64,000 bases of DNA from NCBI RefSeq assembly GCF_013415885.1, contig NZ_CP058910.1, positions 4,340,001 to 4,404,000 on the forward strand. The letters run 5' to 3'. The translations under genes and the position numbers were made by a program. Below the pieces are notes generated by a model that was given only the letters and a program-made list of their open reading frames with translations, was not told the origin of the DNA and did no database searches. Position 1 is the stretch's first letter; each line of letters begins with the position of its first letter. Of this stretch, positions 19,234 through 64,000 are shown piece by piece. Source of the stretch: Halosimplex rubrum. GTDB taxonomy: Archaea; Halobacteriota; Halobacteria; Halobacteriales; Haloarculaceae.

Positions 19234-21531
19234 TCAGTGCCGTCTGCCGCCGTGGCCGGGGTAATCCCGTTCGAAGCGGGCCTCGATCTCGTCGCGGTCG
19301 AACTCGACGACGACGGGGCGGCCGTGGGGGCAGGCCCACGGGTTCTCGCAGTCGTCGAGCCGAGCGAGGAGATCCGTCACCGACCCCTCCGTCAGCGAGG
19401 TGTTACCCGTGATCGAGGGGTAGCAGGCGAGGTCCGACAGCAGCTCGTCGGCGGCGGCCTCGACGGTCTCGGCGGCCGACCCCTCGCCGTCGACGAACGC
19501 TGCCAGCGCGTCGCGCAACAGGTCGGGATCGGCCGTGTCGGCCACCAGCGAGGGGACGGTTCGCACTTCGACCGCACGGTCGCCGACCCGTTCGGCGCGA
19601 AAGCCCAGCGTCGACAGCGCCTCGCCGTAGGTCTCGAACAGCTCGGCCTCGCGAGCCGTCAGCGAGAGTTCGACCGGCCGTGCGAGCGCCTGCGTCGTCG
19701 TCTCGCCGGCGAACTGCTCGCGCAGCCGCTCGTAGTTGATCCGCTCGTCGGCGGCGTGCTGGTCGACCATGACCAGCCCGTCGTCGGTCTCGGCGAGGAC
19801 GTACGTCCCGTGGAGCTGGCCCAGCACCCGCATCGAGGGCAGGGCGTCGAACGCCCGCGACTCCGCCGCGGCGTCCTCGACCGGCTCGCCGTCGCCGAGC
19901 CGGGCCTGGTCGTGGCCGCCGCCGAACTTTCGAGCGCGGCCGTCCCGGTCGCCCGGCGCCGTCGCGTCGGCCGACGCCTCGCCACGGGTGGTCGGCTCCG
20001 GGGTCGATTCGGCGTCGGTGACCGGCCCCGGAGTCGAAGCGGCGTCGTCCGAGTCCGCGGCCGCTCCCCCGTTGTCCGGCCCAGCCCCCGCGCTCGCACC
20101 CGCGTCCGCAGTGGTCGTGCCCCCGCCGGTCGAGCCCTCGCCGTCTTGGGCGCCGGATTCCTTCGACGGGTCCCGGTCCGACGCCGGTGTCGAGCGGGGC
20201 GACGGCGCCGACGGGTCCGAGGAGAACGTCGGCCCCGTCGTCGAGGCGGTCGTCGAATCGACCGTCTCGTCGGAGCCCGGTTCGCGCGATCCGGCGGCCG
20301 TTCGGCCGTCGTCCGTCGATCCCGTCGCGTCCGACGATCCGGTCCCGGGAAGGGACTCGTCGGGGACCGCCGGCTCGTCTGTGGGGTCGCCGTCCGGTCC
20401 CTCGTCGGTTTCACCGCGTTCGGGCGCGATCTCGGCCTGTTCGGGCGCGGACTTGCCGCGGGGGGCACCGCTGCGGAGCAGCCCCTCGTCGAGCAGCGCC
20501 GACTCGACGGCAGTCTCGATCTGTTCGCGGACGCCTTCCTCGTCGGCGAAGCGGACCTCCAGTTTCCGGGGGTGGACGTTCACGTCCACGTCGCCGGCGG
20601 GCACGTCGAGAAAGAGGACGGCGAAGGGGAACCGATCCGGCGCGAGTTGGTGGCCGTAGGCGGAGACGACGGCGTCGCGGACGGCGCTCGCCGTCACGTA
20701 CCGACCGTTGACGTACGTCGAGCAGTACTCGCGGGTGCTCCGGGTGGTCTCGGGGTGGCTCACCAGCCCGGACACGCCGTCGAGCGGGCCGTCGGGGAGG
20801 GTGCCGTCCTCGTCGCCGCCGTCCGCCTCGTACCCCGCCGAGACTTCGACCATCGACTCGGCCACGTCGCGGCCGTAGACGGCCATGACGGCCGCGCGGC
20901 GGTCGCCCTGGCCCGTCGTGGCGAACGTCTCGCGGCCGTCGTGCGTCAGCGAGACGGCGATCGACGGGTTGGCGAGCGCGTAGCTCGTGACGACCGTGTT
21001 GACGTGGGCGAACTCCGTGCCGTCCTGCTTGAGGTACTTCCGGCGGGCCGGGACGTTGAAAAAGAGGTCGTCGACCTCGATGGTGGTGCCCTCCGGGCAG
21101 CCGACGGGTTCGACGCTCGTCACCTCGCCGCCCTCGACGGTGAGTTTCGTGCCGCGGTGGCTGTCCACGTCGCGGTCGCTCCGGGGCCGGGTCGTGATCG
21201 TGAGCCGGGAGACGGCGCCGACGGCGTGCAGCGCCTCGCCGCGGAAGCCCAGGGTGCCGACGCCCGACTCGAGGTCGTCGATGTCGCGGATCTTCGAGGT
21301 AGTGTGTTCCTCGACGGCGCGGGTGACCTCCGCCTCGGTCATGCCGATCCCGTCGTCGGCGACGGTGACGCCGTCTTTGCCGCCGCGCTCGACGGTCACG
21401 TCGACGCGGGTGGCGTCGGCGTCGAGGCTGTTCTCGACGAGTTCCTTCACGACCGACGAGGGGCGTTCGACCACCTCGCCCGCGGCGATGCGCTCGACGG
21501 TCGCATCGTCGAGGCGGCGTATATCGACCAT
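19234..21531 (-). CDS. mutL: DNA mismatch repair protein MutL
   Basis: A 765-residue MutL with an intact GHKL ATPase: VVKELVENSLDA (E/N catalytic region), DDGIGM, and TLGFRGEALH. A long Ser/Thr/Pro/Asp-rich linker covers about residues 345-560. The C-terminal endonuclease motif DQHA-x2-E-x4-E is complete as DQHAADERINYE near residue 590, and the metal-site CPHGRP motif is present near the C-terminus. This is therefore an endonuclease-type MutL, as in organisms lacking MutH. The partner mutS is cut at 58.9 kb in this window. The ATG at 21531 (MVDIRRLDD) is preferred over 21537. Confidence 0.95.
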   Translation of the reverse strand: MVDIRRLDDATVERIAAGEVVERPSSVVKELVENSLDADATRVDVTVERGGKDGVTVADDGIGMTEAEVTRAVEEHTTSKIRDIDDLESGVGTLGFRGEALHAVGAVSRLTITTRPRSDRDVDSHRGTKLTVEGGEVTSVEPVGCPEGTTIEVDDLFFNVPARRKYLKQDGTEFAHVNTVVTSYALANPSIAVSLTHDGRETFATTGQGDRRAAVMAVYGRDVAESMVEVSAGYEADGGDEDGTLPDGPLDGVSGLVSHPETTRSTREYCSTYVNGRYVTASAVRDAVVSAYGHQLAPDRFPFAVLFLDVPAGDVDVNVHPRKLEVRFADEEGVREQIETAVESALLDEGLLRSGAPRGKSAPEQAEIAPERGETDEGPDGDPTDEPAVPDESLPGTGSSDATGSTDDGRTAAGSREPGSDETVDSTTASTTGPTFSSDPSAPSPRSTPASDRDPSKESGAQDGEGSTGGGTTTADAGASAGAGPDNGGAAADSDDAASTPGPVTDAESTPEPTTRGEASADATAPGDRDGRARKFGGGHDQARLGDGEPVEDAAAESRAFDALPSMRVLGQLHGTYVLAETDDGLVMVDQHAADERINYERLREQFAGETTTQALARPVELSLTAREAELFETYGEALSTLGFRAERVGDRAVEVRTVPSLVADTADPDLLRDALAAFVDGEGSAAETVEAAADELLSDLACYPSITGNTSLTEGSVTDLLARLDDCENPWACPHGRPVVVEFDRDEIEARFERDYPGHGGRRH

Positions 21532-56011: not shown

Positions 56012-56677
56012 TCAGTCCGACGCCGCCGGGTCCGGACCGCTCCGGTCGCCGACTTCGACGGCGCCGTTCCGAACGACGGGCGGGTGACGGAACAGCGCGG
56101 TCGACCCCGCGTCGAGCGGCCGGCGCATCCGGACGGCGCCCATGCGACGGCCGCCCTCGAAGGAGGCCTCGGACTCCGTCTCGAAGCCGAGTTCGTCGTA
56201 GACGTGCCGGGCGGCGCGATTGGTCGGTTCGACGACCAGCGTGAGCGCGTCGCGGTCGGCGACGGCCGCCGCCGCGAGGACGTGTTTGCTCACCTCCGTC
56301 CCGATGCCCCGACCCTGGTAGTCCTGGTGGACGAAGACGGCGAACTCCGGTTCGGCCGCGTCGGTCGGCGTGTACAGCGCGTGGCCGACCGGGCCGTCCT
56401 CGCCGGTCACGACGAAGTTACAGCCGTCTTCGAGACAGTCGTCGACCCACTCTTCGAGCCGCGGGCGGTGGCGCGGCGGCAACCCCTGGGCCTGCTCGCC
56501 CGGCGCGAAGTCGTCGTACATCTCGACCAGCGCCGCCCGGTCGGCGGCCGTCGCCGGCCGAACCACCCACGCCTCGCCCGCCGCGTCGACGAACCGCGGA
56601 CACCGCGGCGGGCAGTGAGCCGTCCCCTCGCACTCCTCGGGCGCCCAGTACGTACACGTCCCGTCGGCGTCGGTCAT
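56012..56677 (-). CDS. GNAT acetyltransferase with N-terminal Cys cluster
   Basis: A 221-residue protein. The C-terminal part is a GNAT domain with the acetyl-CoA pyrophosphate-binding motif HQDYQGRGIGTEVSKHVL (Q-x-x-G-x-G) around residue 140. It is preceded by a short N-terminal region with four Cys (residues 8, 16, 22, 26) and a His at 21, plausibly a small metal site. The closing SerPro-rich tail is not typical. The acetyl acceptor is unknown. Confidence 0.8.
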   Translation of the reverse strand: MTDADGTCTYWAPEECEGTAHCPPRCPRFVDAAGEAWVVRPATAADRAALVEMYDDFAPGEQAQGLPPRHRPRLEEWVDDCLEDGCNFVVTGEDGPVGHALYTPTDAAEPEFAVFVHQDYQGRGIGTEVSKHVLAAAAVADRDALTLVVEPTNRAARHVYDELGFETESEASFEGGRRMGAVRMRRPLDAGSTALFRHPPVVRNGAVEVGDRSGPDPAASD

Positions 56678-56831
56678 ACCCGAACGTCTCTCCCCGACGG
56701 GGTTAAGGGGGGAACCGCGCTCTCAGTCTCCGGGAACGGTCGGACGACCGCAGGTCAGTGACCGCCTTCGGTCTTCAGCGCTCCTTTGATCCTTCAGAAG
56801 GCCCTTTCCGGTACCGGATGTGGGTCCGCAC

Positions 56832-58313
56832 ATGCCGACTCGACGCCGGACCCTCGCGCTCGCCGCGGGGCTGGTCGCCACAGCCGGCTGTCTCGGCGAC
56901 GGTGACGCCGCGACCGGAACCGATCCGCCGAGCGACGACGCGACGCCGACGGACCGCCCGACGACCGGACAGACGGACGACGTCGCTCCCTCCGAGACGC
57001 CCACGCCGGCGCCCGACGGCACGCCCACCGTCGCCGGGACCGACGAGCCGCGGAAGACGGCCGACCGGGCCACGCCCGCACCGCCGGCCACAGTCACCCG
57101 CGTCTCGGGCGAGCTCCCCGACTGGACCGCCGACCGCTGGATCGACACCGACTACGCGCAGGTCCTCGGCCTCGACGCCGGTGACCGACGGCTCTACGTC
57201 ACGATGAGCAACGACGGCGGCCGGTCGGCGGTCGCGGCACTGTCGCCCGACTCCGCCGCATTCGACTGGGTCCAGTCGTTCGCCGGCGAGGCCGAAGCGG
57301 GCTCGCACCACGAACCGACCGACGCCACCGACACCTGGGGCGTGACCGTCGGCGACGGCACCGTCTACAGCGTCCACGGCCGCGGCGAGTCCTACGAGTG
57401 GACCGCACTCCACGCCCTCGACGCGGCGACCGGCACCGAACGCTGGTCGTTCGAGCGCGAGCGCCGCCTCGGCATCGCCGGGTTCCTCGACGGCGCGGTC
57501 GTCGTCCGCGCGACGGAGTTCTTCGAACCCGAACACAGCCACGACACGCCCGAAGAGCCCCTGGAGACGACGGTCCACGCGGTCGACACCGCCGGCGGCG
57601 ACTCGCGGTGGTCGGCGTCGGTCGCCGGGCTGTCGGGGCTCGCGGTGGGGTCCGACGCCGTCTACGCCGCGGGCGGTCGGTCGCTGTCGGCCTACGATGC
57701 CGGCGGCGACAGGTTGTGGGAGCGGGGCCTCGCTGCCCCCGTTCGGTTGGCCACCGTTCTCGGCGACACGCTCGTCTGCTCGGTCGGCGAGTCGGACGAC
57801 GACGCCTCGCTCGTCGGGGTCTCGACCGACGGCGAACGACTGTGGGCGCGCCCGCTGTCGGCGCGGTGGTTCGTGCCGACCGACGACCGGCTGTACGTCG
57901 GAAACGACTCGGTCGCCGCCGTCGCAGCCGACGGCACCGTCGCCTGGCGCGAGCGCGCCTACGCTCACGACCCGTTGCTCGACGCCGACGAGAATCGGCT
58001 GTACACGCGGACCAACCCCCGGATGAACGCCGTCGACGCCTACGACCTGCCCGGCGGCGACCGCCCGTATCGGTTCGTCACTCCCTCGAACAACGGGTGG
58101 CCGGTCGCCGCGACGGCCGGGACGCTCGTCGCCGAGGCGATAACCCCGGAGGAGGCCGACTTCACGAGCCTGTTCGCCGTCGACGCCGCGACCGGCGAAC
58201 CGCGTGCGGTCTACCGCCCGAGCGACTCGGTGTTCAGCGTGACGGGCTTCGAGGGTGCCGTCTACGCCGGCTTCGGAAACGGCAAGCTCGGCGTGTTCCC
58301 GAACGTTCGGTAG
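56832..58313 (+). CDS. PQQ-type beta-propeller lipoprotein
   Basis: A 493-residue exported protein from the ATG at 56832 (MPTRRRTLALAAGLVATAGCLGDG), a Tat signal with a lipobox Cys near residue 20. A Thr/Pro/Asp-rich linker of ~70 residues follows. The body is a propeller with PQQ-like blades, A-x-x-G-x-x-x-W (ALDAATGTERWSFE, AVDTAGGDSRWSAS, AYDAGGDRLWERG, GVSTDGERLWARP, AVAADGTVAWRER). Function unknown; such propellers often bind other surface proteins or cofactors. An in-frame ATG at 56820 is also possible. Confidence 0.8.
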   Translation: MPTRRRTLALAAGLVATAGCLGDGDAATGTDPPSDDATPTDRPTTGQTDDVAPSETPTPAPDGTPTVAGTDEPRKTADRATPAPPATVTRVSGELPDWTADRWIDTDYAQVLGLDAGDRRLYVTMSNDGGRSAVAALSPDSAAFDWVQSFAGEAEAGSHHEPTDATDTWGVTVGDGTVYSVHGRGESYEWTALHALDAATGTERWSFERERRLGIAGFLDGAVVVRATEFFEPEHSHDTPEEPLETTVHAVDTAGGDSRWSASVAGLSGLAVGSDAVYAAGGRSLSAYDAGGDRLWERGLAAPVRLATVLGDTLVCSVGESDDDASLVGVSTDGERLWARPLSARWFVPTDDRLYVGNDSVAAVAADGTVAWRERAYAHDPLLDADENRLYTRTNPRMNAVDAYDLPGGDRPYRFVTPSNNGWPVAATAGTLVAEAITPEEADFTSLFAVDAATGEPRAVYRPSDSVFSVTGFEGAVYAGFGNGKLGVFPNVR

Positions 58314-58357: not shown

Positions 58358-58923
58358 TCACTCCTCGTCCAACTCGGCCTGCCAGTCCTGCACTTTCGCC
58401 ATCAACTCGACCGGGGGCGTCTCGTTCACGTCCAGATCCCGCAGTTCGTCCAGCACCGCCTCGGTCTCGGGGTCAAGGGCGGGTGTGGCGTCCCCCGCCG
58501 GCTCGTCGACCGCGTGACTGCCGTCGGTCGCCAGTTGTTCGCCGGAGTCCGACCCGACGGCCGACTCGGTGCCGTCTGCGCCGGCGTCGCCCGTCGTGAA
58601 CTGCCCGCTGTTCAGGTCGAAGACGGCTTGCGTGGTGCCCGACCCCGAGTCGCTGCCGCGGACCTCGATGGCCTCCTCCTCGCGCAGCCGGTCGAGCACC
58701 TCCCGCGAGCGGTCGACGACCGGATCGGGCACGCCCGCCAGGTCGGCGACGTGGATCCCGTAGGAGCGGTCGGTCGGCCCGTCTTCGACCGTCCGCAGGA
58801 AGGTCACGTCGCCGTCGCGCTCGTCCGCGGCGACGTGGACGTTCTGGACGCTCGGTAACTCCTCGCCCAGCACCGTCAGTTCGTGGTAGTGCGTGGCGAA
58901 GAGCGTCTTCGCTCGCACCCTCG
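58358..58923 (-). pseudogene. mutS: Truncated mutS (C-terminal fragment)
   Basis: About 187 codons. The fragment begins in the MutS ATPase domain at VRAKTLFATHYHELTVLGEELPSVQNVH, followed by SYGIHVADLAGVPDPVVDRSREVL, an acidic/Ser-rich linker, and the C-terminal PPVELMAKVQDWQAEL. The normal ~700 upstream residues, including mismatch-binding, lever and most of the ATPase, are absent. Reading further upstream in frame leads to a stop at 58955-58957 through unrelated residues, so the break is near 58919-58930. The lost part is not in the rest of the window, so either a large insertion or a rearrangement cut the gene. Confidence 0.9.
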
Positions 58924-60551
58924 TTTCAACTCGACAGGGGCACAGTTCGCCTGACTAGCTGACAGGCCATTTCGGGACCGAAAACCGATTCTTCGGCCTG
59001 CGATTTATTTTCACGATCGGATTTTTTAGCCGGTATAAACAGTCTCTGAGCGGATCTACCAATCGTGTGTGACTGCCCTGCCTGCCGTGGCTCACACCCG
59101 CTTTCAGGGGCCGTGGCCCACAGTGCGGTCAGTCGCGACCGAACGGGGATTGGCGGCGGCGAGCGACGGCGGGGAGACACGACTCGGGAGTGTTCATCGG
59201 TGCGCCGAGCGTGCGGTTTGTTGGGGGACAATCGTGGGCTGCTGGCGCTCGACTTCGCTCGGCGGGCTGGCCGGTTGGCACACGACCGTCAAGGAAGGGT
59301 TGGTGCCGCGGACCGCTGCATACGTCTGGGACGGACGTTGAATGGTCCATCGAGAGGACTGCGAGCGGCACTGGTGTGCCGACCGTTGCAGCCCCCTGGG
59401 GCACACAGTTATATCGGGGGCTCCATTTGCTGAGAAGCGGCGCTATCAGGCCCGCATTTTCGAGGCACTGCCGTCGCCGATCTGTCTGCTATCCGATCGA
59501 ATCTGGTACGACCTCGACACCGTCCTGTGATGGTCCACGAACCGGCAATCCGCGTGGGTAATCGTTTATTACCCGCTCGGCCGACGGGACAGGTACGAGG
59601 CGATCACCGCCGGACCGCGGTGACCGACACGACCAATGACACGTACAGACACGCCAGCGAGTGGCGACACTCGCTCACGCCTGACTCTGGCCGCACATCT
59701 CGCCACGATCAGTTCCGCTATCGTCGTGACGGCGACGTCGATCACGACGATCGCCACCCGATCAGTCGCGGCCATCGCGTTGTTCGTGTCGCTGTCGGTT
59801 GCGATCGGCGGTGGGCTCTATCTCATTACGGAGCACCTGTGGGACACGTAGACCAGTCTCACCCGTGGCGGCTGTGTCCTGCGGGCCGTACATCGACGCC
59901 GATTGGCCGGACCACCGCTGGGTACCCAGTGCTGGTGCGTCCGTCTCGTCGTCGCTGTCCCTGTGAGTTCGACGGGGTGGATCGATCAGTGCCCAGCCAT
60001 CCGAGTAGCCGACTTCCGAAGGCCCCGATTGCGGTGAGTTTCCGAGGCGTCCACCCGCTCCGATCGTGACTCCCCCACGGATTCGATCCAGTCGTCGATC
60101 GTCACATCCGGTCCCCGTCTTGCGATTTTGGTGCCCCGGCTCTGAGTCCGACCGGGTGAGCGGATAGATCTGGGGAGCCGCGCTGGGACTCGCCGCCGAA
60201 TCCTGGCCAGGACACGGCTCTTCGAGGCGATCCTCGCAGGGAGCCATGGCCGACCCATCCAGTGTGTGCGGGCTCACACGCATCCCCCAAACAGCTATGA
60301 GACAGTCTTTACCGGTGGATATCGTCGATCGTGAACGCGGTGGCACGGATCGAGCCCGGCCGACTGCGTCGCTCGTCGGCTACGACTGTGTTTCGCTCAC
60401 TGTGAGGTGACGAGACTCCCTCGTACGTGTCCGCCCCAGATCAGCTAGCGACGTCCCCAGTCTGGTTCACGGGCTTAGTTACACTCCGATTTAGCAGTTA
60501 CAACACACCCTGACTTGGTCGTTCAGTAGACGTGCGTAAATAGTATGGAAG
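58924..60551. other. Gene-poor accessory stretch next to the broken mutS
   Basis: About 1.6 kb with no convincing gene apart from the weak 59636-59851 candidate. GC is moderate and the frames present are shadow-like, rich in Arg, Ser, Cys and Gly. The left end (58933 onwards, GGGGCACAGTTCGCCTGACT) is where core sequence stops; I found no matching inverted copy of it in the window. Probably decayed mobile-element or plasmid-like DNA. Confidence 0.5.
59636..59851 (+). CDS. Possible small two-helix membrane protein
   Basis: A 71-residue frame (MTRTDTPASGDTRSRLTLAAHLATISSAIVVTATS) with two hydrophobic segments at about residues 17-38 and 43-64. A TATA-like TTTATTACC lies ~65 bases upstream. The region is otherwise non-coding and codon use is not decisive, so it may be spurious. 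Confidence 0.3.
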   Translation: MTRTDTPASGDTRSRLTLAAHLATISSAIVVTATSITTIATRSVAAIALFVSLSVAIGGGLYLITEHLWDT

Positions 60552-60860
60552 TTAGAATGTCGGTAAGCCGCCGAGATTGTCCTCCTCTGTATTGTTTTGA
60601 TCTGTGCGGATAAACTTCTGACCGTGGACCTCCAGCACGTGTATCTCGTCACCGAGAGACCATTTTCCCGTCTCCTCGTTTTTGATTGCCGTGGTGTAAT
60701 CGTCCCCCGTTTCGATACCACCTACGACAGTTGAGCGGTCAACCGTCTCAGTATTTGCGAGAACGTCGGGTTTCACTTCTTTCCGCTTCACCTGTTTAAT
60801 CCGACTATCGTCGTAGTTGTATTGAACGGCTGTAATGGCATAGTCGCCCCATTCCGTCAT
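60552..60860 (-). CDS. DUF3892-like protein
   Basis: A 102-residue protein (MTEWGDYAITAVQYNYDDSRIKQVKRKEVKPDVLANTE). The order of an opening Y-x-I-T-x-V strand, I-x-x-V, and later GDDYTTAIKNEETGKWSLGDEIHVLEVHGQKFIRTD is like the small DUF3892 family, which occurs on accessory elements. Function unknown. Base composition is clearly more AT-rich than in the core genes. Confidence 0.6.
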   Translation of the reverse strand: MTEWGDYAITAVQYNYDDSRIKQVKRKEVKPDVLANTETVDRSTVVGGIETGDDYTTAIKNEETGKWSLGDEIHVLEVHGQKFIRTDQNNTEEDNLGGLPTF

Positions 60861-61148
60861 AGAACGTTATTAATAATGCACATTGTTTAAACTAGGGAAT
60901 GCGGGGTGAAAGTAAACACCCAATCCTGAGTCCATAAAATCGATCATTTTTGAGAGCTTGGCACCTATGGTCACAGGCAACCAGTCAGCCTGGCCGGTAC
61001 TGAAAACCGTCCGATAACGAACGTCATTTGCTTACTGACTCAATTCCCTAGATCTATCACTTCAAGCCCTACAAGAAGTATTCTCTGACACGCTGATTGT
61101 GAGTTCGCACCCGCCCGCGTCAAAATACGAGAGCTATCCTCAGATCGA

Positions 61149-61439
61149 CTACCCGACGACACCAATCGCTGTGAGGAATTGCAAAGTGCCAAGCAGAACA
61201 AGAATCACTGAGAGAAGAATCGTCGCACTTGTCATGTACAACGACCGTTTCTTGTAGCTCTCAAGCGAAGATTCGAGCTCTCGAATTTCCGTGATAAGCC
61301 GTCGATTCACTATGATTTGGGCTTTCGGCGTATCCACTAACGGCTTGTAACTGGTATTCCGCTGTGCATCTACTTCGACCTCTTCATCTAAAGCGCGTTG
61401 CACCAGTTCGTCAATCCTGTCATCGTCTAAGTCGTCCAT
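61149..61439 (-). CDS. Small tail-anchored coiled-coil protein
   Basis: A 96-residue protein from the ATG at 61439 (MDDLDDDRIDELVQRALDEE). Residues ~45-70 (RRLITEIRELESSLESYKKR) form a predicted coiled coil and residues ~72-93 (MTSATILLSVILVLLGTLQFL) a single C-terminal membrane anchor. It is divergent, about 200 bases apart, from the nuclease-like gene. The arrangement fits a membrane-tethered partner, but this is only inference. The longer frame to 61628 includes an unlikely N-terminus. Confidence 0.6.
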   Translation of the reverse strand: MDDLDDDRIDELVQRALDEEVEVDAQRNTSYKPLVDTPKAQIIVNRRLITEIRELESSLESYKKRSLYMTSATILLSVILVLLGTLQFLTAIGVVG

Positions 61440-61642
61440 ACAGTGATTCACGGAAGTATAGAATAAATTGTGTTTGTCTTGTTGGCAATACGCGAAGTGT
61501 GACCGGTACTTACCCTGTACTGAGCGAATCGTGAATGCGAGTATATGAACCGCTATATGACTCCCTCCTATCGTGGTTCCTTCGAGTCCTCCCTTTGGCA
61601 CCCCAATATCTTTGTCAGAGGGGCGCAACTACAGAATATCGG
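61440..61642. promoter_or_regulatory. Divergent promoter region between tail-anchored protein and nuclease-like genes
   Basis: This ~200-base gap is AT-rich near its left end (ATAGAATAAATTGTG at 61458-61472, a TATA-like run for the minus-strand gene). No repeats are obvious. The two genes may be co-regulated from it. Confidence 0.4.
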
Positions 61643-63292
61643 ATGCCGTGCGAGAATTGCGGTTGTCTCCGCTGTGTCGATGATGATCGGAGTCTCTTCT
61701 GTCCTCGATGTACTGGCAAGGAGATCGAAACAAAATTCGCGATCCGCGCTGAGGCAAACTGGTTCCTCGAGGACTATTTTTCGGGCGAGAACCTGATCGG
61801 CGTCCTCAAAGAATACGAGAAGACGTCGCTGATCACAACAATTCTGACCCGCCTCGATCACATTGCCTACAATTTCAAGGAGAAGAACGGGTTGCCAGTC
61901 GACGACTTTCGCTATCTTCCGTATTTCATCAAGCTAATCTACGAGAACAACGGCTTTGGCGACAAGCGTGTTGCTTCGCCCGTCGATCTCAATGAGGAAC
62001 TCAATACACTGCTTGAAGGGTACACAACAGTCGTCGAAACAGTGCGCAAAACACGGGACCAGCTCAATGTGGCCATTCGTCGTGATGCGCGCACGGTCGA
62101 CTGGAGCGATCTCCCGTCAAAGTACGAATTCTACACCTCAGAGCGAAGTCTCTGTGCCCGCCGGTGTATCGAGAGTATGTTGTGTGGGGATTTCGGGCAG
62201 TATCCGGATTTTTCATTCGTCGTTGACACCATCAGAGCAGTCCAGAAGACGCCTGTCGACGAGATCGACACGCCATGGGAGTTCGGTGATGGATGGTATC
62301 AGCTGATCATTCAGCTTATCGCGATGGCGGCGATGGACGAATTCGCGGGTGAGGTTTTCTATACGGACTTCCCAGAGACGGTCAGCATTCTGGAGCTGCG
62401 CGAGTTTCTCGACAACCTGGACGCCTGTTTGCCTCCCGGCTTTGAGCACCTCGCAGCAGAGTCGACGGGTGTGCCTATACTCAGTGCGCCGCAAGTCGAA
62501 GCCAGCGGCAGACTCGCCTTTGGCGAGAAGTGGGAGGACGTCAAGCCAACGGTAATTATGAGCGAGACCACTCCGGATGCCCATCCACTGCTGTTCGAAA
62601 TATCGGGACACCAGCAGATCTATAGTCCACTACTCGAATGTAGTCTCGAGCGGGACGTACCGCGATATCTCTATCCACGATTTTTCGCGTTCCTGTTGCA
62701 GTTTCAAGCGTTCCCGCTGCTGCAAAACGGTTCGACAGCGAAGTCAGGGCATGCTCTCTTGACTGATCTCACGGCAAAGCGAGGGAAGGCGGCCGAGAGC
62801 AATCTTTTCAGTATCCTCTCGAAACGAGGTATCGAGTGCTATCATAGCGCCCAACTCCCTCGGAGCGATCCGCACGAGATCGATCTCATCTGTGAGTTGG
62901 ACGATGGCCTCACCTTCATTGAGATGAAGTATTTCCGGCCACCGATTCGGCTGCAATCGGCAGAGGGGCTTCGGATCCTCGCGGAAAAATTCGACGAGAA
63001 GATCTTCAAAATCGAGAGCGACCGGGCACCCGGTAGCCCCAGCGGGAAGCCCTTCCCCGAGAAGGTCGACACGTGGGTGGACCAGCCAGCACACTCGACA
63101 TTTACGTCACTGTCGATGGCTGGTGACCGCGTCGATCAGTCGTTGGATCCTGAGTGGACTGAGACAGATCCGCAGCTGTACGTCGTCTCGAATGTGGTGC
63201 CGCCATATTTCACGAAGCGTAATGTTCGCTTCCTGACGGACGTTGAGTTCTTCAAACTCGTGGCCCATGGTGCAGATGATGTGCTAATTTAG
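61643..63292 (+). CDS. Zinc-ribbon plus PD-(D/E)XK nuclease-like protein
   Basis: A 549-residue protein from the ATG at 61643. Residues 3-23 hold a Cys cluster, MPCENCGCLRC then LFCPRCTG, fitting a small zinc ribbon. The middle (~30-340) is mostly helical with no family I recognise. Residues ~380-440 look like a PD-(D/E)XK nuclease core: E385 in the KAAESNLFSIL helix, then ECYHSAQLPRSDPHEIDLIC with D414, and FIEMKYFRPP with E427 and K429. The D...E-x-K spacing is right and all residues are present, so activity is plausible. The C-terminal ~100 residues are a further mixed domain (LYVVSNVVPPYFTKRNVRFL). It stands in accessory DNA, so a defence or mobile-element role is possible but unproven. 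Confidence 0.65.
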   Translation: MPCENCGCLRCVDDDRSLFCPRCTGKEIETKFAIRAEANWFLEDYFSGENLIGVLKEYEKTSLITTILTRLDHIAYNFKEKNGLPVDDFRYLPYFIKLIYENNGFGDKRVASPVDLNEELNTLLEGYTTVVETVRKTRDQLNVAIRRDARTVDWSDLPSKYEFYTSERSLCARRCIESMLCGDFGQYPDFSFVVDTIRAVQKTPVDEIDTPWEFGDGWYQLIIQLIAMAAMDEFAGEVFYTDFPETVSILELREFLDNLDACLPPGFEHLAAESTGVPILSAPQVEASGRLAFGEKWEDVKPTVIMSETTPDAHPLLFEISGHQQIYSPLLECSLERDVPRYLYPRFFAFLLQFQAFPLLQNGSTAKSGHALLTDLTAKRGKAAESNLFSILSKRGIECYHSAQLPRSDPHEIDLICELDDGLTFIEMKYFRPPIRLQSAEGLRILAEKFDEKIFKIESDRAPGSPSGKPFPEKVDTWVDQPAHSTFTSLSMAGDRVDQSLDPEWTETDPQLYVVSNVVPPYFTKRNVRFLTDVEFFKLVAHGADDVLI

Positions 63293-63405
63293 CGATCGTG
63301 GATTCCACTCTGGGAGATCGATTTGCCGGCGAGGCTGCGGAGCTCCGATCCAGCTAGCCGCAAGCGATCTCATTTTTATCGGTTCCGTGTCTGGCTCTCA
63401 TCGAG

Positions 63406-64000
63406 ATGGGCCGACTGCGCAGCGGAAGGTGGATCTTCACGCTCCTCTTGCTCCTCGATTCGCTGCTCTCCGTCTCGGACGAATTCCTCACGGCAACGGT
63501 CCTGGGTTCAAAGGCCGTGCTCTCACTCTCCGGGAATCTTGTTGGCGAGCTCGACCTCGTCATGAACGGGCTCGTCCTGGGGGCTGGCGCATTCCTGCTA
63601 TCCGAGCGCCTGTTCACACGTGCGTGGGCTTCACGGCTGTCGTATCGGCTAATTTTCACAGGCTCCTCGTTTCTGTCGTATCTCGTGTTGGTGTCCAATA
63701 TCGGTGGCAACACCGTCGTTTTCTTCGGAGCATTCCCGATCGTGGTCCAGTGGATCGTGAACTACGTCATCAGTGTCTTCGGTCCCTATTGCGCTTTCGC
63801 GGTGTTATTCTCGAGATGTACCACTCTTGGCTCCCCCACAACTCGGGTTGCTACACTCCGGCTCTCTGCCGTTGTCCTCTCCGCCACGATGCTCTTCGGG
63901 ACGTCATTCTTCGTTCTCGGAAATTTCCTGCCGGTCTTCGAACTGGTCACGGCGATCGGACTGCTCCTCGAGAGCCGGTACGGGAACAGCATCGCCGTCC
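63406..64000 (+). CDS. Partial multi-pass membrane protein
   Basis: An open frame from an ATG at 63406 runs off the right edge with no stop (~198 residues). It begins MGRLRSGRWIFTLLLLLDSLL and has about five hydrophobic segments (around residues 8-24, 42-70, 82-105, 113-140, 155-185) with few acidic residues. It lies 113 bases downstream of, and co-oriented with, the nuclease-like gene, so the two may belong to one operon. No family is recognised. Confidence 0.55.
   Translation, partial: MGRLRSGRWIFTLLLLLDSLLSVSDEFLTATVLGSKAVLSLSGNLVGELDLVMNGLVLGAGAFLLSERLFTRAWASRLSYRLIFTGSSFLSYLVLVSNIGGNTVVFFGAFPIVVQWIVNYVISVFGPYCAFAVLFSRCTTLGSPTTRVATLRLSAVVLSATMLFGTSFFVLGNFLPVFELVTAIGLLLESRYGNSIAV

Follow-up and report, generated by a model that had tools for sequence, protein, structure and literature searches.

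A plasmid-like island with a very probable attachment site in the 3′ part of mutS in Halosimplex rubrum

The window, a stretch of 64,000 nucleotides from Halosimplex rubrum (G000:C1:4340001-4404000; G000 is the source genome, one contig of 4,480,147 bp), carries the 3′ end of a mutS gene towards its right side (Table 1). Translation of positions 58358-58960 on the minus strand yields 186 in-frame mutS codons from V-R-A-K-T-L-F onwards, preceded by an unrelated frame with a stop (S, stop, SGELCPCRVETR, then VRAKTLF), just as an earlier note on this DNA had described in placing a cut within the ATPase domain. The fragment, hereafter the stub, is genuine MutS sequence (PF00488, positions 107-187 of 188, E 5.6e-23), lacks its own start and breaks off abruptly. 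The fall in GC content recorded in the same note is also seen, the values being 0.70-0.74 as far as ~58 kb, then 0.63 between 59 and 60 kb and 0.49-0.58 from 60 to 64 kb, and the distant mutL was located as a MutL_C match at G000:4359393-4359824 (window 19393-19824, minus strand) in a 773-aa frame ~38 kb away.

Table 1. Features at the mutS junction (window coordinates).
Feature	Position	Strand	Remarks
Host GNAT-like gene (by eye), next marker downstream of mutS	56012..56677	-	Downstream of mutS in G091, G092, G094, G090 and G093
Beta-propeller-like lipoprotein gene (by eye) of the host, beside the native 3′ end of mutS	56820..58313	+	Host-side marker of the junction; counterpart beside mutS in G091, beside the stub in G093 and beside the remnant in G090
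Putative displaced tail of host mutS (S-type, 186 codons)	58358..58918	-	Runs on into host downstream DNA; intact mutS of G091/G092 has a colinear 3′ end
Putative attachment-core block in mutS, codons V-x-A-K-T-L-F-A-T-H-Y-H-E-L-T-x-L-G-E	58863..58918	-	Also with the element end off mutS in G063/G065, and in the remnant in G090
Putative right end of integrative element, touching the core	58919..59072		82% identical over query 5-154 in G090; 71% over 1-120 in G063
In-window part of island	58919..64000		Extends past the window to G000:4438482
Hypothetical ORF in island, 102 aa	60552..60860	-	
585-aa cargo protein	61535..63292	+	No Pfam, PADLOC, NCBIfam or PHROG match
507-aa hydrophobic membrane-like cargo protein, start	63406..64000	+	Runs past the window; no family match

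The earlier note had read the break as an insertion or rearrangement junction and proposed a search for the missing part of mutS. This part was found at the far end of a low-GC island of 40 kb, and the insertion reading is upheld. Here, at G000:4438504, lies a full mutS on the same strand as the stub, with a 968-aa frame, all five Pfam MutS domains (I-V) and a C-terminal part 76% identical to the stub. Two mutS 3′ ends are therefore present in direct orientation, one at each end of the island, and mutS is not broken: a displaced tail sits at one end and the whole gene 40 kb away. Moreover, a second MutS of 977 aa is encoded at 2010588. The full-length gene and this second MutS rule out a loss of mutS, and the mutator strain that the note had raised conditionally is unsupported.

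A tyrosine integrase gene (4437024-4438490, plus strand; PF00589, E 1e-8, with a PHROG integrase match) occupies the full-mutS end of the island. It is convergent with mutS and overlaps it by 8 nt at the mutS stop, the two stop codons overlapping in TCAGCTGA. R187, the HxxR motif (H307/R310) and tyrosines around 349-361 are near-invariant across 26 relatives of the protein. Other island genes encode a HerA/VirD4-like ATPase (1301 aa), TFB, SWIM, DUF6735, CAAX protease, ArdC-like and RPA-like proteins, and defence or modification is represented by type I restriction-modification, an N6 methylase and a candidate defence protein, PDC-M11A. The backbone of ATPase, TFB, SWIM, DUF6735, ArdC-like and RPA-like genes resembles that of haloarchaeal HerA/TFB-bearing plasmid-like elements, and relatives of the HerA/VirD4-like ATPase occur in 69 of 142 genomes of the family. 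Virion structural families were matched neither by the larger island proteins (Pfam) nor by eight proteins compared with PHROGs; the island is best described as a plasmid-like integrative element. By eye, PDC-M11A (L009:12586-14079, minus strand) has a PIN-like start, with a GNAT domain, and the 585-aa cargo protein has a Cys-rich N-terminus and a nuclease-like C-terminus. A second N6 DNA methylase, HsdM-like, lies at L009:16827-18758 (minus strand) with no HsdS or HsdR neighbours visible.

The two copies of mutS were compared across the junctions. Read in the mutS sense, 2-6 of 15 bases match upstream of a shared core, and 13/15 and 14/15 match from AAGAC[G/C]CTCTTCGC on, so that the stub and the full gene part company exactly at the codons KTLFATHYHEL. 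These codons align with the LFATHYFELT loop of solved bacterial MutS, which is the ABC-ATPase switch-histidine loop. The strictly conserved heart of the core block spans 58877-58909. As direct repeats the cores lie at 4398877-4398909 and 4438993-4439025, with 27 of the first 30 bases identical and a distance between them of 40,116 bp. The island ends share ~560 bp of mutS homology, at 83% identity where it is conserved. Dyad symmetry was sought in the core, where the best imperfect repeats fell within the range of shuffles and none was significant.

Comparison with other genomes revealed empty, occupied and remnant loci. Two congeners, G091 and G092, have an intact mutS and no island; their gene matches the source genome from 4441264 to ~4438766 and then passes directly to 4398912, through the stub and into the host genes. 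The stub side is host DNA, because the stub and the gene behind it are orthologous with the intact mutS and its neighbour in G091 over 2.2 kb. The intact orthologues in congeners also exclude a naturally short family member, which the note had listed as a refuting alternative. In a third congener, G093, the locus is occupied: a stub (89% identical) and a full mutS lie 54 kb apart around a related island, whose backbone genes are colinear with those of the source genome and encode proteins of 80% (ATPase), 88% (RPA-like) and ~85% (ArdC-like) identity. The integrase of this island is eroded to its C-terminus and the cargo differs, with Pbe-type and methyltransferase genes. By eye, the cargo (G093:C1:5106400-5160000, L072-L074) includes a PbeC-like phosphorothioation-defence protein, methyltransferases and a GHKL-type ATPase. 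Behind mutS in a fourth congener, G090, there is a remnant of only 3.4 kb that retains the right end of the element and 57 bp of core, so the mutS locus is a used site in these two genomes too. In G089 and G094 mutS is intact and the element absent at the locus.

The right end of the element together with the ~55-bp mutS-like core was also found off mutS, on other contigs of a sister genus (G063, G065). The combined pattern occurs without mismatches at G063:C2:23666, ~440 bp from an ATPase with 76% identity across its full length, with one mismatch at G065:C2:344052 and with two at G063:C12:37837, where it is readable as SKTRFATHYHKLTPL; two-mismatch matches were near the control rate overall and were used only if confirmed by translation. 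The constant left border of these off-mutS elements argues for an attachment core rather than random capture. At two of these places (L218 on G063:C12 and L219 on G065:C2) the core has a HerA-like ATPase and an aRF1-like gene (by eye) close by and ends in a short in-frame stop, and integration would truncate MutS.

Relatives of the integrase adjoin other genes, and none was found beside mutS elsewhere. A tRNA-targeting integrase was ruled out, as no tRNA lies within 1.5 kb of any of 29 sampled relatives. Searches with the integrase gave no match in phage and viral collections and three distant matches in plasmids, and a free mutS 3′ fragment of the right kind was not found on plasmids. Viral contigs bearing mutS were set aside, their genes being full length, only 32-40% identical to this mutS and non-haloarchaeal in appearance, with no integrase relative. 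Some bacterial proviruses in IMG/VR (L087, L088, L089, L098, L099) start with a full mutS, which is followed by an integrase-like protein of ~430-475 aa (by eye); a tRNA-like stretch separates the two in at least one of them, so that a tRNA gene located after mutS may be the site.

The 3′ part of mutS exists in two types, here called S and E. In a tree of the N-terminal part the genus is monophyletic (100/100). The tree of the C-terminal part contains an S clade (100/97), comprising the stubs of G000 and G093 and the intact genes of G091 and G092, and an E clade (100/99), comprising the full genes of G000, G093, G090, G089 and G094 together with the sister genus. At third codon positions, G000 and G091/G092 are mostly 70-79% identical upstream and ~50% identical in the 3′ part, where comparisons of S with S remain higher. 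The E-type end, including its -SDADVS tail, is consistent with vertical inheritance in this genus and its sister genus, and the S-type appears foreign. Because of this, the origin of the element-borne 3′ end was left to junction geometry, in which host genes adjoin the stub just as they adjoin mutS in G091; this points to the stub as the host's own end. The codons just before the core are SEYIVNNVAA in G091/G092 and TEYLAN(Q/R)IQA in the full genes of G000/G093. Had one integration hit a gene like that of G091/G092, the former would have been left, and the latter are seen; therefore, either an unsampled hybrid host allele or a later conversion has to be supposed. As the codons upstream of the junction misfit one integration, at least two exchanges of the mutS 3′ end are needed.

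Both stubs, in G000 and G093, are free of stop codons, and dN/dS between them is 0.16 overall and 0.05 over the first 91 codons, resembling functional genes. Therefore, the stubs have probably not been dead sequence for long; either the insertions may be recent, or excision may have repeatedly exposed the stubs to selection.

Very probably, the island is a site-specific integrative element for which the 3′ part of mutS serves as attachment site and which brings a replacement 3′ end with it. The stub would be the original 3′ end of the host gene, displaced to the right junction (attR) of the ~40-kb element. At the opposite end, the tyrosine integrase would recombine the ~55-bp core encoding the MutS switch-histidine loop, the element bearing its own mutS 3′ end (~180 codons) beside the integrase gene. 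Integration would regenerate a full-length MutS of chimeric type at the left junction (attL) and leave the original 3′ end orphaned among its old neighbours. Three predictions follow from this scheme: action of the integrase on the KTLFATHYHEL core, excision of the element, and a functional regenerated MutS.

A similar arrangement could be produced by Campbell-type homologous recombination between a plasmid-borne mutS 3′ fragment and the chromosomal gene, with the integrase a bystander of another site. The mutS homology at the two island ends is sufficient for such an event, and both the other genes adjoined by integrase relatives and the core without a significant dyad agree with it. However, the left limit of mutS homology is identical in G000, G093, G090 and the off-mutS elements of G063 and G065, as a fixed core predicts, and the integrase sits exactly at the attL border, overlapping the mutS stop; we consider recombination of this kind improbable. 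We also think it unlikely that the E-type full mutS was never interrupted, the block from integrase to stub having been inserted just past its stop and the S-type stub being a captured fragment. The fit of the E-type ends to vertical descent accords with this, as do the likewise E-type codons upstream in the full gene, but the 2.2-kb orthology with G091 across the link from stub to host gene places the stub on the host side, and an extra event would be required to put an S-type 3′ end there. An assembly error or a decayed tandem mutS duplication without a mobile element, to which the startless and abruptly ending stub might point, is already refuted by the unoccupied sites in G091 and G092, by the integrase and plasmid-like backbone between the copies, and by the matching layout of stub, island and full mutS in the independent, single-contig G093, which also excludes the assembly join that the note had named as its other alternative.

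Site-specific integration at mutS might further constitute an active switch between two versions of the MutS C-terminus, the element's 3′ end being used when integrated and the host's own when excised, with both under selection. We regard this as a rather unlikely extension; if true, swapping the MutS ATPase tail could adjust mismatch repair or how strongly recombination between species is hindered.

Integrative elements that target the 3′ part of a protein-coding gene and regenerate it are known from Escherichia coli, where e14 and phage 21 lie in icd. Among thaumarchaeal elements, 3′-distal parts of protein-coding genes are used in 14 of 68 (PMC6563490). The island is like both in that a conserved gene is hit, an alternative 3′ end supplied and the displaced end found at the other junction, and in that the proof comes from empty versus occupied loci; it is unlike them in its target, mutS, in the ~180 codons replaced, which belong to the catalytic ATPase domain and the C-terminal tail, and in its core, the switch-histidine loop. 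Archaeal integrases use mostly tRNA genes, and mutS is not among the few protein-coding targets listed (PMC8371274, section 19). A phrase search for integration into mutS found no report among the papers covered, which is no proof of absence. Islander-type tDNA islands (PMC4383910) differ in that the target here is protein-coding, and the 29 sampled integrase relatives are likewise without an adjoining tRNA. In Streptococcus pyogenes, SpyCI islands occupy the 5′ end of mutL, silencing the gene in a growth-phase mutator switch (PMC3430984, PMC4689407). They share with the present island an attachment site in a mismatch-repair gene; however, here it is the 3′ part of mutS, the host is archaeal and a full-length gene is regenerated, so that mutS keeps its length and all its domains while the element is integrated. 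Among HerA/TFB plasmid-like elements, a position at mutS was seen for the copies in G000 and G093 and for the remnant in G090, and for no others.

The mobile element itself is of a common kind and its address is the unusual part: a repair gene is regenerated there and not destroyed. Truncated mutS copies in haloarchaeal genomes need not imply mutator status. The mismatch-repair gene mutS would be an attachment site for mobile elements in archaea, with the crossover in its most conserved catalytic loop. A fifth of the MutS protein would be exchanged, which offers a concrete route by which a core repair enzyme may become a mosaic of alleles, and the island provides a ready system in which to test the effects of such elements on mutation or recombination rates.
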